Shown here: positions 1,163 through 12,387 of the stretch, in pieces
Position numbering within the stretch: position 1 is the stretch's first letter
Layout: each line of letters begins with the position of its first letter
Assembly: GCF_000153805.1 (NCBI RefSeq)
Contig: NZ_DS022298.1
Span: forward strand, 796,756-860,755
DNA from: Synechococcus sp. BL107
GTDB lineage: Bacteria > Cyanobacteriota > Cyanobacteriia > PCC-6307 > Cyanobiaceae
Direction: 5' to 3'
Length of the DNA stretch: 64,000 nucleotides
Translations under genes and position numbers: made by a program
The notes under the pieces: generated by a model
The model's input: only the letters and a program-made list of their open reading frames with translations
The model's database searches: none
Told to the model about the DNA's origin: nothing

Positions 1163-3093
<1,931 letters not shown>

Positions 3094-6718: not shown

Positions 6719-8359
6719 TTACATCACTTCAGTGATAGAAACAATCTTGCCGCCACGGGCATGGATGTATTTCATCTGGCTCGACATGTCTTTGCCGGAT
6801 ACCAGATAAGTATTTCCTGCAGTGCGTTGACGTCCTCGGGCTGCTTGAGCACCCACCACAATCCGGAAACGCTTCTTGGTGGGATCAGGCGCACCAGATT
6901 GTGTGCCAGTCCGGTTGATCCTTGTGGTGGTGGAGCTCCAGCCTCCAGGAACCATGCCGGTTGCAACAGACGTTACGAGGGACGAACTGGTTTGAACGGT
7001 GTCGCTAGCAGCGAAGCCTTCAGCCAATTTCAGGTGACGGTTGAAAGCCACTTGAGAGCGGCCATTTTCAGACAGGATTCGTGCGAATGGCACGGTGTCT
7101 TCCCCGAAGGTGCTCTGGTATTCCTCGCAGTCGACGTAACTGGCGATTTCTGCGTCGTAGCCGCCCTCAGCCAGAATTTTTGTGTGCTCACTGATTTCAG
7201 CCTGAGACTTTGGCGCGCGTCCGAGGAAGTGCTTGAAGTTCAGTTCGATAAAGCGATAAGGGGCGTTGGTCTCAAAGAAACGACGCTTGTATTCAGCCGA
7301 CAATCCAATCGCACGGACAAATTCTCGAGTGCTGAGGTAACCATCGATGAACTTGCTCTCCGCTGAGATGGCGCGCTCAAATTCCATCAGATGGGGGTTG
7401 CCCATTACTTGCTTGTACGACGCGCGAATCAATGCTGCGAGCTGATCTGGGCTATCGCCTGGGCAGCGCTGATAAGTTTCCTGCTCTCGTTGCCCCAAAC
7501 CGAAGTACACGTAGGAGTCACCACGCATGGGTGCATTGTCTTTCCCACTGGTGACACCAGGGGCTTTGCTTGCGAAGCGAGCGCCGCCGCCTGCAGATGG
7601 GCGGATCCCAAATGGTTGCGATGGGACGCTGATTCGAGGAGCGGTACCGCTGCCAAGGCTTGTGGTTAAAGCGCTGCTTCCGCCACGGGCACTGTCGCTA
7701 CCGGCAAAGCTTTTCTGAATCGCCGCGAGCATTGGGAATGCTGCGGTGGAGAGATCCGCCGGGGAGCTCCAAGACCGTGCGTAAGGCACCACATTGCTAC
7801 CAAACACCTCGAGGTATTCGGCCGAATCGACGATGCTGTCGATGACAGCTGCTTGCCCGTGCTCCGCCTGCAGGGAAATTTTTGCCGACATCTCTGCTTG
7901 GGAGTGCGGTGCCCGGCCAAGGAGATGTTTGAAATTCAGTTCAATGCCGCGCTGAGGGGCAACGGATAAGAAAAAGCGGCTTTTGTAAAAGCTTGATTTC
8001 GCCAGGCCTCGAATGAAATTACGGACATCGAGGTCTCCATTACGCAGTTGAGCTTCCAGCTCGGCGCAACGCTCGAAATCCATCACATGCGCATTGCCAA
8101 ATACCTGCCGATAGGCGGCTGCAATGACGTCATTCAGAGCCGATGAATCATCTGGGCTATAGCACTCTGAGGTGACGCGGTGAGGGCAATCCGCATGACT
8201 GCGAGGTCCAACCCCGATCGCCAGTTGATCGCATGATTGCTTGAGGAATTCACCAATCGTGAGAGCAGGTTTTTTGCCGACCCCTTTGCGTTCAAAGCTG
8301 ACGGGGCTGCTCCATTTTGTTTCTGCGCCGAATCCTTTTGAAGCTTGAGTTGTGTCCAT
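6719..8359 (-). CDS. mpeD: Fused phycoerythrin linker MpeD (two linker domains)
   Basis: 546 residues with two linker domains. The first half resembles MpeC: Cys43 followed by GVGPRSHADCP, then AAYRQVFGNAHVMDFERC near 90 and IELNFKHLLGRAPHSQAE. The second half (from about 290) carries KQVMGNPHLMEFERA and IELNFKHFLGRAPKSQAE, ending in a CpcD-like domain (FRIVVGAQ to GGKIVSITEV). Known: marine Synechococcus MpeD is an unusually long linker (548 residues in WH8102) that fuses an MpeC paralog with a CpeD-like linker and carries phycourobilin. It therefore likely bridges the PEI-PEII junction of the rod. Flanked by cpeC and cpeE in one transcript. Confidence 0.92.
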   Translation of the reverse strand: MDTTQASKGFGAETKWSSPVSFERKGVGKKPALTIGEFLKQSCDQLAIGVGPRSHADCPHRVTSECYSPDDSSALNDVIAAAYRQVFGNAHVMDFERCAELEAQLRNGDLDVRNFIRGLAKSSFYKSRFFLSVAPQRGIELNFKHLLGRAPHSQAEMSAKISLQAEHGQAAVIDSIVDSAEYLEVFGSNVVPYARSWSSPADLSTAAFPMLAAIQKSFAGSDSARGGSSALTTSLGSGTAPRISVPSQPFGIRPSAGGGARFASKAPGVTSGKDNAPMRGDSYVYFGLGQREQETYQRCPGDSPDQLAALIRASYKQVMGNPHLMEFERAISAESKFIDGYLSTREFVRAIGLSAEYKRRFFETNAPYRFIELNFKHFLGRAPKSQAEISEHTKILAEGGYDAEIASYVDCEEYQSTFGEDTVPFARILSENGRSQVAFNRHLKLAEGFAASDTVQTSSSLVTSVATGMVPGGWSSTTTRINRTGTQSGAPDPTKKRFRIVVGAQAARGRQRTAGNTYLVSGKDMSSQMKYIHARGGKIVSITEVM

Positions 8360-9481: not shown

Positions 9482-10186
9482 TCAGCTCTGGGGGCTGCGG
9501 AGCGATTCGAGGCTTGTTCGTGTTGTGCCGCGCGTCAGAGGATTCCAGTGATCCAGTTCCATTGCCGATCGATTCAGCAGAGTTGTTAATTGTTCGTTGA
9601 GCCCTGAACAATGGCTGAAATCAGCCCCTTTGATGGATTCAACGCTGTCTAGAGCAGCGTCTTGGAGATCAGCACCACGGAAATCAGCGAGATCAAGTTG
9701 GCTCGTGCCGAACCGGGTCGCCCGGCACATCGCGCCACGAAGAGTGGCGAAACGAAGATCGGATCCAGCGAGAGAGACACCATCGAGCAGTGCACCACTG
9801 AGGTCGGCACCGCTGAGGTAGGCCCCCATTAAGACAGCTCCACGCAGATCAATACCGCGCAGATCGGCATTGTTCAGAAATGCTCCGTTGAGCTTCGCGC
9901 CTGGGCCGACTGCCCCACTTCTCAACAGATCAAAGCCCTCAGGGACTGTCGTGACATGGTCAAAACGAGCAAGCCGAAGGTCTGCTCCCTCCAGTTGGCA
10001 GCGACTTAAATTGCTGCCTCGTAAGTCGCACCTGCACAAATTGGCGTTGCGAAGGTCTTGCTCGCCAAGATCTTGTTCGCTCCAGTTGGCTCCCCGTGCA
10101 TCGATGCACTCGCCCTCGAATTGTTGTGGACGAACTGTTTCTGGTGCAACCCAGGTGCGCAGATTGAGAGCCACCGTTCCAACCAT
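9482..10186 (-). CDS. Pentapeptide-repeat protein
   Basis: 234 residues from an ATG at 10186, seven bases past the cpcG2 stop. The middle and C-terminus are tandem A(D/N)Lxx pentapeptides (for example LRGIDLRGAVLMGAYLSGAD), which fold as a right-handed quadrilateral beta-helix. There is no signal peptide or membrane segment. Known: such proteins are abundant in cyanobacteria and mostly uncharacterised. Position directly behind cpcG2 suggests co-transcription and a role in the antenna cluster, but function is unknown. The frame remains open upstream inside cpcG2; that extension is Cys/Arg/Ser-rich and is rejected. Confidence 0.85.
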   Translation of the reverse strand: MVGTVALNLRTWVAPETVRPQQFEGECIDARGANWSEQDLGEQDLRNANLCRCDLRGSNLSRCQLEGADLRLARFDHVTTVPEGFDLLRSGAVGPGAKLNGAFLNNADLRGIDLRGAVLMGAYLSGADLSGALLDGVSLAGSDLRFATLRGAMCRATRFGTSQLDLADFRGADLQDAALDSVESIKGADFSHCSGLNEQLTTLLNRSAMELDHWNPLTRGTTRTSLESLRSPQS

Positions 10187-10193
10187 CAGAGAG

Positions 10194-10958
10194 TCAGCTG
10201 CGAACCATTGAGATCGCGATCGTAAGCAGCACCCTGGTGATCTCGAAGCCTCCAACAACGAAGAGGCCCAACCAGACCTTGAGCAGCCACGCCGGTGGTT
10301 GTCCGTTGACCCACAGCTCAGAGACTTGCAATGTTTGGCCTTGCATACCGTCAAACTGAGATCTGGGAGCTCTCTCTTGCAGAGAGTCGCGCCAGTCGGC
10401 TCCGTAGCGGGGGAAGCTCTGATAAATCGGTGTCTCTCCTAGAGATTGTCCTGGCAAGACGCGGGAGCGTTGCTGCGGCACAAGGTCGTAACCGAAGCAG
10501 CTCATGTATTCATCGCTATCGAGGAGTGTGTCCACAAAGTTGGTGAATCCTTTCTCCCCAATCACGATCGACCAGGCCAAGCGCTCAGCATCGCCATGGA
10601 CGGGGCGGCCGAGCACACGCCCCACCACTTGATCCACCATCCGGTAGTTCGAGCTGCACTGGTAATAGCCCTGCTGAAAACGTTCAGACAGCAGCAGGCC
10701 TCGGATGAAATCTCGAAGTGTGATGTTGCCGCTTCTCAGCTGTGATTCCAGAAACGGCTCACGATCGCTTTGCATCGCGTGAAAAAAGATCTGCTGATAG
10801 GCCTGTTCGATCAAGCAGTCGATGTTGGAGCGATAAGTATCCGCGCCGCCTTCAGAAGAACCCGTTAGCTCCGTTCGAACTGTGCTGGTATCCCCCGCCA
10901 GATTGCTCACCCGTGCGTTCTGCGTTGTGAGGGGATACGCCTGCAGGGGCAAAGCCAT
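10194..10958 (-). CDS. cpcG2: Rod-core linker CpcG2, CpcL-like with C-terminal membrane helix
   Basis: 254 residues: a linker domain of the CpcG group (IDCLIEQAYQQIFFHAM near 46-62, LRSGNITLRDFIRGLLLSERF, DSDEYMSCFGYDLVPQQRSRVLPGQ) and a hydrophobic end from about residue 222 (WLLKVWLGLFVVGGFEITRVL). Known: CpcL-type linkers have a C-terminal transmembrane helix that anchors core-less phycocyanin rods to the thylakoid, feeding photosystem I; standard CpcG1 lacks it. The tail seen here fits the anchored type. Downstream, the pentapeptide gene follows by seven bases; upstream lies a phycobiliprotein-like gene. Confidence 0.88.
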   Translation of the reverse strand: MALPLQAYPLTTQNARVSNLAGDTSTVRTELTGSSEGGADTYRSNIDCLIEQAYQQIFFHAMQSDREPFLESQLRSGNITLRDFIRGLLLSERFQQGYYQCSSNYRMVDQVVGRVLGRPVHGDAERLAWSIVIGEKGFTNFVDTLLDSDEYMSCFGYDLVPQQRSRVLPGQSLGETPIYQSFPRYGADWRDSLQERAPRSQFDGMQGQTLQVSELWVNGQPPAWLLKVWLGLFVVGGFEITRVLLTIAISMVRS

Positions 10959-11030: not shown

Positions 11031-11603
11031 TCAGTACTTAACTGCAGTTTTGTTGAGTTCCTTGAGTAGGTGCATAAATGAATCGCTAAGAAGTTGGGCT
11101 TCGATTGCGCCTGAAACCTCGTGCTCGGAAAGGACTTTTAGCCGTTTGAGGGCGATGTTGAGTCCTTCGATGGGCACTCCGACGTGGGCATACAGAGCGA
11201 GCAAAGCGCCCATTCCTTCTGGATCTGTGAATTGGTCTTGTTTGCACGCAATCGCATAAACGATCACGCGGAAGAACTGCCAGCAGTCTCTCCAGCAGGC
11301 TTCGGCGCGTTCCGATGGGAACAGCGCGCCACCCGATTGCACGAGATGCGGCTGCTCTCTCACAAGGAATTCACGTGCTTGCTGCACCAAGTGATTGGCT
11401 TTGCCCTGGAGCTGCTCGATCAGCTGAGCATCAACCTTCGAGGATTGACAAATTTGTTGGATTTCTGCTGGTGATAAGGCGCGCTTCTCTTCATCCGCCA
11501 TTCGAAGAATCTGGCGATCAGAAGCTGGTAGAGAAGGATCGTTCTGCAGTCCCAACACTTGAGCTGATGCGATCAACTGCTTCAGCACTGGATCATTCGG
11601 CAT
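11031..11603 (-). CDS. Phycobiliprotein-like protein (AplA-like)
   Basis: 190 residues. The centre carries a divergent phycobiliprotein signature: Cys103 in an ACWRD motif (equivalent to the CLRD bilin site of alpha/beta chains), then FFRVIVYAIACKQDQF and LLALYAHVGVPIEGLNIAL, like the conserved LRxxxYxxxAGD and LGVP elements. The N-terminal 60 residues are unlike standard subunits. Known: AplA-type phycobiliproteins lack a normal light-harvesting role. Retention of the Cys means a bilin could bind, giving a sensor, a chaperone or an assembly factor; this is inference. It lies between cpcG2 and a hypothetical gene on the same strand, ten bases apart from the latter. Confidence 0.75.
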   Translation of the reverse strand: MPNDPVLKQLIASAQVLGLQNDPSLPASDRQILRMADEEKRALSPAEIQQICQSSKVDAQLIEQLQGKANHLVQQAREFLVREQPHLVQSGGALFPSERAEACWRDCWQFFRVIVYAIACKQDQFTDPEGMGALLALYAHVGVPIEGLNIALKRLKVLSEHEVSGAIEAQLLSDSFMHLLKELNKTAVKY

Positions 11604-11612
11604 CGGCTTTTT

Positions 11613-12038
11613 TTAGAGCTGAAACGACGAGACGGGGGTGGCAATGAGCCCACCATGCCGCTCAAGATAAAAAGCCCAGACCAGATTTTCCCCTAGTCCT
11701 GGGCAATGCTCGATCGCGATTTGCGCCACTTCGCTGGACGATCCCATGGCATGGAGGAGTTGCTTCGCTTCAGTTGCTGAGCTGATTGTGGTGCCACGGA
11801 TGGCAGACCCCACGACCCAGGTGAGCGTTGTATCAATGAGATCGCCGTCATTGTCCGCGCAGGCCAGCAGAAGGTTGGCCGGACTGATGATTTGTTCAAA
11901 CGTTTCCTGCCAGAGCTGAATGTTTTCGTCCCGCAAGTTGATGCGAAAGCAGTCAGGACCTGCTGGGAAACTCAGCTCTCCGCTGGCATCGGCATGCTCT
12001 TGAAGTGCCTCGATTCTTGGATCTGCGAGACAGCTCAT
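11613..12038 (-). CDS. Hypothetical protein of the phycobilisome cluster
   Basis: 141 residues from the ATG at 12038 (MSCLADPRIEALQEHADA); a GTG two codons earlier is possible. Soluble and acidic, with a WQETFEQIISPANLLLACADNDGD segment and a VVGSAIRGTTISSATEA segment, but no family I recognise. It ends ten bases before the phycobiliprotein-like gene, so the two are probably co-transcribed, and it would be the first gene of that unit. Function unknown. Confidence 0.65.
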   Translation of the reverse strand: MSCLADPRIEALQEHADASGELSFPAGPDCFRINLRDENIQLWQETFEQIISPANLLLACADNDGDLIDTTLTWVVGSAIRGTTISSATEAKQLLHAMGSSSEVAQIAIEHCPGLGENLVWAFYLERHGGLIATPVSSFQL

Positions 12039-12387
12039 CCGCACTGATCAGAAGTCGTTCATTTAACCAGTGCCGAGGGGCTTTCCCTTTGAACTTGTCG
12101 CATTACAGATCGCGGTGGGTCAATGGCTTGCGGTGATTGAAGTCGCGATCTGAGAATGTGCTTGCCCAGCGTTCTTGCGTAGAAAGTAACTTTTGATATT
12201 TGTTGGGGTGACGAATGTCAGCACTAGGTATTTGTAAGGCCTCCGTGCTTGTTCTCTGAGCAAAGTTTGGGAGGTTTGTAATTTGAAAGATCTTGTTTTT
12301 TGTATAGATGATTCTTCGATGCCCTTAGCCGGCTTATGTATTCAACTGTCTCATATTGATTGACTTGGTGATCATTTCGTTGCTTCG
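12039..12387. other. Intergenic region
   Basis: About 350 bases between the start of the 11613-12038 gene and the stop of the TVP38-like gene. It is relatively AT-rich in its right half, has stops in all frames and contains no tRNA or clear terminator. It probably holds the promoter of the small minus-strand unit to its left. Nothing else can be supported. Confidence 0.5.

Follow-up and report, generated by a model that had tools for sequence, protein, structure and literature searches.

The window analysed here, a 64,000-nucleotide stretch of the Synechococcus sp. BL107 genome, contains an ORF that a first-pass annotation had described as a divergent phycobiliprotein-like gene. The ORF is confirmed, and its product matches the family PF00502 (Pfam) at 97.3 bits (E-value = 1.1e-27, residues 33-183). 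It exceeds the gathering cut-off of 22.2 and is therefore a member of this family. The gene is aplA, already published at the same genomic position in marine Synechococcus, which rules out a novel or orphan phycobiliprotein. The gene, its neighbours and the features discussed below are listed in Table 1.

Table 1. Features of the aplA locus, with positions in the window
Feature	Positions	Strand	Evidence
aplA, allophycocyanin-like phycobiliprotein, 190 aa	11031..11603	minus	PF00502; grouping with AplA homologues; published gene order
Cys103 codon, homologue of the bilin-binding Cys	11295..11297	minus	Cys in 128/128 AplA and 104/104 other phycobiliproteins
Cys107 codon, second cysteine typical of AplA	11283..11285	minus	Cys107 or Cys113 in 124/128 AplA against 1/104 others
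N-terminal extension lacking in antenna subunits, about residues 1-26	11526..11603	minus	Alignments to ApcA and to MpeA-/MpeB-like proteins; predicted helix 5-13
unk4-like gene, GTG start as listed	11613..12044	minus	9 bp upstream of aplA; position given in the available text of PMC2246261
cpcG2 (cpcGII), rod-core linker	10194..10958	minus	PF00427 E-value = 2.7e-36; 72 bp downstream of aplA
unk5-like pentapeptide-repeat gene	9482..10354	minus	PF00805 E-value = 2.8e-24; unk5 described downstream of cpcGII in the available text

Allophycocyanin alpha chains of solved structure match the AplA ORF at E-values of about 1e-11 (best 1all_A, 1.2e-11). All six matched NCBIfam phycobiliprotein models give scores below their cut-offs. 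The best of them, the ApcA model NF058521, gives 56.9 of 270 bits and so falls short of its equivalog cut-off; the CpeA, CpeB, CpcA, CpcB and ApcB models give 15.9 to 44.8 bits against cut-offs of 225 to 279.3. On the AplA profile, the AplA proteins of the fetched loci score 147-265 bits, against 86 bits or less for other phycobiliproteins. The sequence is thus indeed far from any antenna subunit, as had been proposed. In a quick tree, a long branch with support 100 separates 101 AplA rows (of 128, thinned at 88% identity) from 25 of the 104 other phycobiliproteins, including those of the same genome. The NCBIfam cut-offs, the gap in profile scores and the tree together rule out a diverged rod or core subunit. 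ApcA, the source of the best solved match, shares the CxRD motif and the fold with AplA, but differs from it by the low model score, the lack of the N-terminal extension and its separate place on the tree. The genome itself (2.29 Mb, one contig) has 13 PF00502 matches. Eleven are full-length, among which AplA scores lowest (97.5 bits; others 148-198); the other two share one 989-residue frame. The closest named relative, from a contig scan that found two loci, is in Synechococcus sp. AG-683-C23 (77% identity). A phage gene was also considered and rejected: there are no matches in 50,697 phage records, nor in IMG/VR for the one peptide pattern used.

The unk4-like gene, aplA, the linker and the pentapeptide-repeat gene lie on one strand in the published order. 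According to the available parts of Six et al. 2007 (PMC2246261), who compared 11 marine Synechococcus genomes, an aplA orthologue lies upstream of cpcGII in all PEII-containing strains, unk4 lies upstream of aplA, and cpcGII is generally followed downstream by unk5, which has pentapeptide repeats; the window has this same order, unk4-aplA-cpcGII-unk5. The available text of PMC6363710 places aplA in Type IIB clusters also, and AplA is labelled in those cluster-figure legends of PMC5478717 and PMC6776005 that are available.

In the window the unk4-like gene has no match in Pfam or NCBIfam. The unk5-like ORF overlaps cpcG2 as listed, and its true start is probably further in. The C-terminus of the cpcG2 product is hydrophobic, as it also is in neighbouring homologues, and resembles that of membrane-anchored CpcL-type linkers. 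Promoter and terminator scans gave chance-level results only. Elsewhere in the window, positions 6719-8359 (minus strand) encode a double rod linker of 546 residues, in which two PBS_linker_poly stretches are combined with a CpcD domain. A phycobiliprotein ORF at 1163-1927 (minus strand) as listed begins some 76 residues too early by comparison with the usual start, its true start being probably near 1699; we call it MpeB-like, a name of our own, as is MpeA-like for another window protein.

AplA was reportedly named by Montgomery and colleagues in 2004, in Fremyella diplosiphon. That protein is said to have a 28-residue N-terminal extension, to keep its chromophore residues and to have changed subunit-contact residues; reportedly it carries a covalent chromophore and is absent from phycobilisomes. 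The window protein is like the AplA/Apl proteins in being an allophycocyanin-like phycobiliprotein with an N-terminal extension and retained chromophore residues. In gene order and described features, we found nothing that would separate it from these proteins. The literature searched, to which subscription journals mostly do not belong, holds no account of AplA function beyond the 2004 work. To the known aplA the present analysis adds two modest leads, a class-wide tie to phycoerythrin and a second cysteine.

Conserved residues and the second cysteine

A search of 300 genomes from the window's GTDB family gave a match to AplA at 1e-10 in 100; in 88 of these the match was 2.2e-20 or better. 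We collected 128 distinct AplA sequences, 87 from the family (leaving out the fragmentary hits of genomes G119 and G227) and 41 from outside it, where 40 of 86 AplA genomes, mostly the best-scoring, were fetched. The comparison set of 104 other phycobiliproteins consists of those hit by the AplA profile in the fetched loci and is not a census.

The CxRD motif of the AplA ORF is Cys103-Trp-Arg105-Asp106, its cysteine presumably corresponding to the consensus bilin-binding Cys84. Cys103 is kept in all 87 distinct AplA of the GTDB family and, with the 41 from outside, in all 128. The bilin-site cysteine is therefore conserved in orthologues, and Pfam, the NCBIfam cut-offs and the ORF map likewise agree with the first-pass view of a protein beside cpcG2 that keeps this cysteine and is not a known rod subunit. 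Ten residues are invariant in the 128 AplA: Gly92, Leu94, Arg99, Cys103, Trp104, Asp106, Phe110, Arg112, Tyr116 and Pro144. Four of these (Cys103, Asp106, Arg112, Tyr116) are also invariant in the 104 other phycobiliproteins. Leu94, Trp104 and Phe110 are atypical of the latter, ApcA included: Phe110 occurs there once, and Leu94 and Trp104 are outside the five commonest residues at their positions. At the positions presumed to make alpha-beta contacts, Arg112 and Tyr116 are kept, Phe110 replaces Tyr/Ile/Val, and the GTDB family has Asp or Asn at position 37.

These residues bear on the reading that the pigment was lost in this lineage and that AplA works as an apoprotein. Arg105 is kept in 124 of the 128 AplA and replaced in four, which would suit a loss, though the window protein is not among the four; the literature searched, as far as its text is available, likewise offers no pigment data for marine AplA. 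Against this, Cys103, Asp106, Arg112 and Tyr116 are kept without exception, and we regard the loss of the pigment as highly improbable. The alignment shows the bilin-site cysteine and pocket residues to be conserved, and in the mechanism proposed below it is the putative chromophore site that is based on sequence.

AplA typically has a second cysteine in the same helix as Cys103. Among the 128 sequences, 75 have only Cys107 (+4), 48 only Cys113 (+10), one both and four neither, compared with one Cys107 and no Cys113 in the 104 other phycobiliproteins. The +4 form is found in most AplA of the window's GTDB family and the +10 form in most others. The window protein, with its cysteine at +4, differs from the homologues outside the family: among those 41, Phe occupies +4 in 37 and the cysteine is at +10 in 39. 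On the tree, read by eye, the Cys113 form comprises nearly all outside members and the first-branching group inside the family, so that the move from Cys113 to Cys107 can be a single event. As one move suffices (the changes being judged by eye), the idea of repeated compensation by a second cysteine is weakened; on the sequences compared, the second cysteine reads as a conserved trait of AplA and not as proof of such compensation. The single protein with both cysteines is that of locus L198, which belongs with genomes G309 and G328, two members of one genus.

In two-cysteine cyanobacteriochromes, the second cysteine binds the bilin a second time or reversibly. By analogy AplA might be a two-cysteine biliprotein, in which Cys107 or Cys113 would bind the bilin again or reversibly. 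The antenna fold would then serve as a switch responding to light or redox state, with phycoerythrin biogenesis as its target. We hold this to be a long shot; the second cysteine offers a single-residue test.

N-terminal extension and fold

In the alignments, ApcA residue 9 corresponds to AplA residue 35, and the MpeA- and MpeB-like proteins of the window begin at about AplA residue 27. The extension of AplA is thus about 26 residues long, compared with about 28 in the Apl family, and this family feature is present. Its positions 10, 14, 16 and 18 are conserved within the GTDB family.

A structure model of AplA from five sequence rows has a pLDDT of 83.9, against 50 for the three AplA rows alone. 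The model leans on paralogues, since its two further rows are window proteins of MpeA- and MpeB-like type. VIA-align matches it to phycobiliproteins with Z-scores of 13.0-14.2 (125-147 residues aligned, rmsd 2.2-4.2), keeping in mind that helical proteins can reach Z of about 13 by common arrangement. The best Foldseek match (E-value = 1.9e-5) has a TM-score of 0.58 on the query and an rmsd of 8.5, the whole-chain superposition being loose. The fold check proposed at first pass therefore returns a phycobiliprotein fold, from a model aided by phycobiliprotein rows; because the added rows are themselves phycobiliproteins, the model counts as support and not as independent proof. A phycobiliprotein fold of AplA is supported by the sequence together with this paralogue-aided model, with the sequence matches carrying the point. 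Single-chain bilin carriers also match the predicted fold, with Z of 13.7-13.8: 6hrk, from an ApcF-type subunit, and smURFP (7uqa). Both bind bilin as single subunits, in agreement with their entry titles. Unlike AplA, these are engineered or far-red core derivatives, and they were compared by fold only.

Co-occurrence with phycoerythrin

Across 388 Cyanobacteriia genomes, AplA (a match of at least 98 bits, four genomes, G365, G540, G446 and G547, having only 98.5-107.4) is present in 107 and CpeB above its cut-off in 114; 94 have both and 261 neither (Fisher p = 7e-55, uncorrected for kinship). CpeB occurs without AplA in 20 of the 114. A within-genus test covered the 22 listed genera with variation (10 genomes of unlisted genus being outside it). 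AplA and CpeB agree there in 96 of 108 genomes, against a shuffle mean of 59.9, and none of 20000 shuffles reached the observed figure. CpeB varies in 20 of these genera, and in 11 of the 20 it matches AplA presence perfectly. AplA is mostly found in phycoerythrin-making cyanobacteria, and the link holds within genera, with exceptions. This link across cyanobacteria narrows the search for the role of AplA to phycoerythrin biology.

Thirteen genomes have AplA only. Five of them (G365, G379, G554, G571, G620) have a strong PebB match (E-value below 1e-60). In a sixth, G540, a CpeA piece of 91% identity lies at the start of a contig. The missing cpeB may thus be an assembly gap in these six. Two others (G446, G547) probably contain not AplA but other phycobiliproteins, since their matches give 75.3 and 72.9 bits with a CpeA query, against 23-41 for the listed AplA. 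In G492 the PebB-like match is confined to a short piece at the edge of a contig. In the remaining four (G309, G328, G376, G410) AplA is clear, but CpeB does not exceed its cut-off and a strong PebB is missing, which argues that phycoerythrin is not strictly needed for AplA; the CpeA match of G376 is intermediate, at 51% identity. The PebB query gave some match in all 16 genomes tested, the weak ones, of about 26-31% identity, being presumably other bilin reductases.

Within the GTDB family, CpeB is found in 84 of the 88 AplA genomes (exceptions G096, G119, G183 and G262). Conversely, 85 of 169 CpeB genomes have no AplA. Seven or fewer phycobiliprotein candidates are found in 76 of these 85, as would be expected of Prochlorococcus, to which we infer that they belong; the other nine have eleven or more candidates and probably make phycobilisomes without AplA. 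A PE-containing strain without aplA, WH7805, is also described in the available text of PMC2246261.

Gene neighbours and the proposed role of AplA

We compared the neighbours of aplA within about 5 kb (8 kb for plasmid loci) in the 75 family loci longer than 6 kb and in 41 distinct outside loci, which remain of 43 after leaving out the second copies of the Rippkaea and Pseudanabaena plasmids. Another phycobilisome gene lies near aplA in all 75 family loci and in 39 of the 41 outside. The family loci have a linker in 65 cases and unk4 in 64, and no PebA/PebB-like gene within about 5 kb in any of the 75. The outside loci have a HEAT-repeat lyase-like gene (35 of 41), a CpeS-like gene (26), a PebA/PebB-like gene (25, of which 21 at 150 bits or more) and a linker (24), with no unk4 relative near aplA in any of the 41.

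Five of 72,556 plasmid records match AplA, the best three over 93-95% of the query. Three plasmid loci (L156, L157 and L158) combine aplA with phycoerythrin genes. In Rippkaea orientalis PCC 8801 and Gloeothece citriformis PCC 7424, aplA is accompanied by phycoerythrin subunit genes, pebA and pebB, lyases and linkers; "bleomycin hydrolase" annotations of the latter plasmid match CpeA and CpeB. The plasmid of Pseudanabaena sp. PCC 7367, typed as conjugative, has aplA with cpeB and a rod-core linker.

This linkage suggests, with fair probability in our judgement, that AplA is a non-antenna phycobiliprotein serving phycoerythrin-containing phycobilisomes. One bilin would, very probably, be attached covalently at Cys103 by a lyase of the phycobilisome gene cluster. 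The changed surface and the N-terminal extension would then keep AplA out of the antenna rings, leaving a free pigmented protein in the cell. Its most likely role would be to sense light or bilin supply and to tune phycoerythrin or rod assembly. As Pfam shows no domain beyond PF00502, signalling by AplA would need a partner. A sensor of this kind would be an antenna fold turned into a photoreceptor.

The first-pass annotation had offered a sensor, a chromophore carrier or an assembly factor as candidates, and the link to phycoerythrin genes fits all three. AplA may instead hold a bilin for transfer, or help phycoerythrin or linkers to fold, with no light sensing. The bilin synthases, lyase-like genes and linkers among its neighbours speak for such a delivery or assembly factor, as does the way in which AplA presence tracks CpeB within genera; a thioether-bound bilin, as reported for Fremyella AplA, is not readily handed on. 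We consider this a real but less probable possibility than sensing; it would imply an unrecognised maturation step for phycoerythrin.

It is unlikely, in our view, that AplA belongs as a minor structural component to a special phycobilisome, such as rods held by the membrane-anchored CpcL-type linker encoded beside it, and was missed in phycobilisome preparations. In the window, aplA is followed directly downstream by a gene for a linker with a hydrophobic C-terminus; a linker of this kind is present in 49 of the 65 family loci with an intact linker, and within 1.7 kb of aplA in 43 of the 65. Such a linker is found in only 2 of the 22 distinct outside loci with an intact linker, which rules out the pairing of a CpcL-type linker with aplA as a family-wide rule and weighs against a structural part. 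The available text of PMC2246261 also states that in Fremyella AplA has no link to the phycobilisome.

For the lyase that a pigmented, free AplA would use, the outside loci provide a candidate. The HEAT-repeat gene at L157:7237-7893 is closest to NblB, under the cut-off (91.6 of 300 bits). In 24 of the 41 outside loci, a relative of this gene and aplA are arranged head-to-head, no more than 1.8 kb apart, and genes of this type could encode a lyase for AplA.
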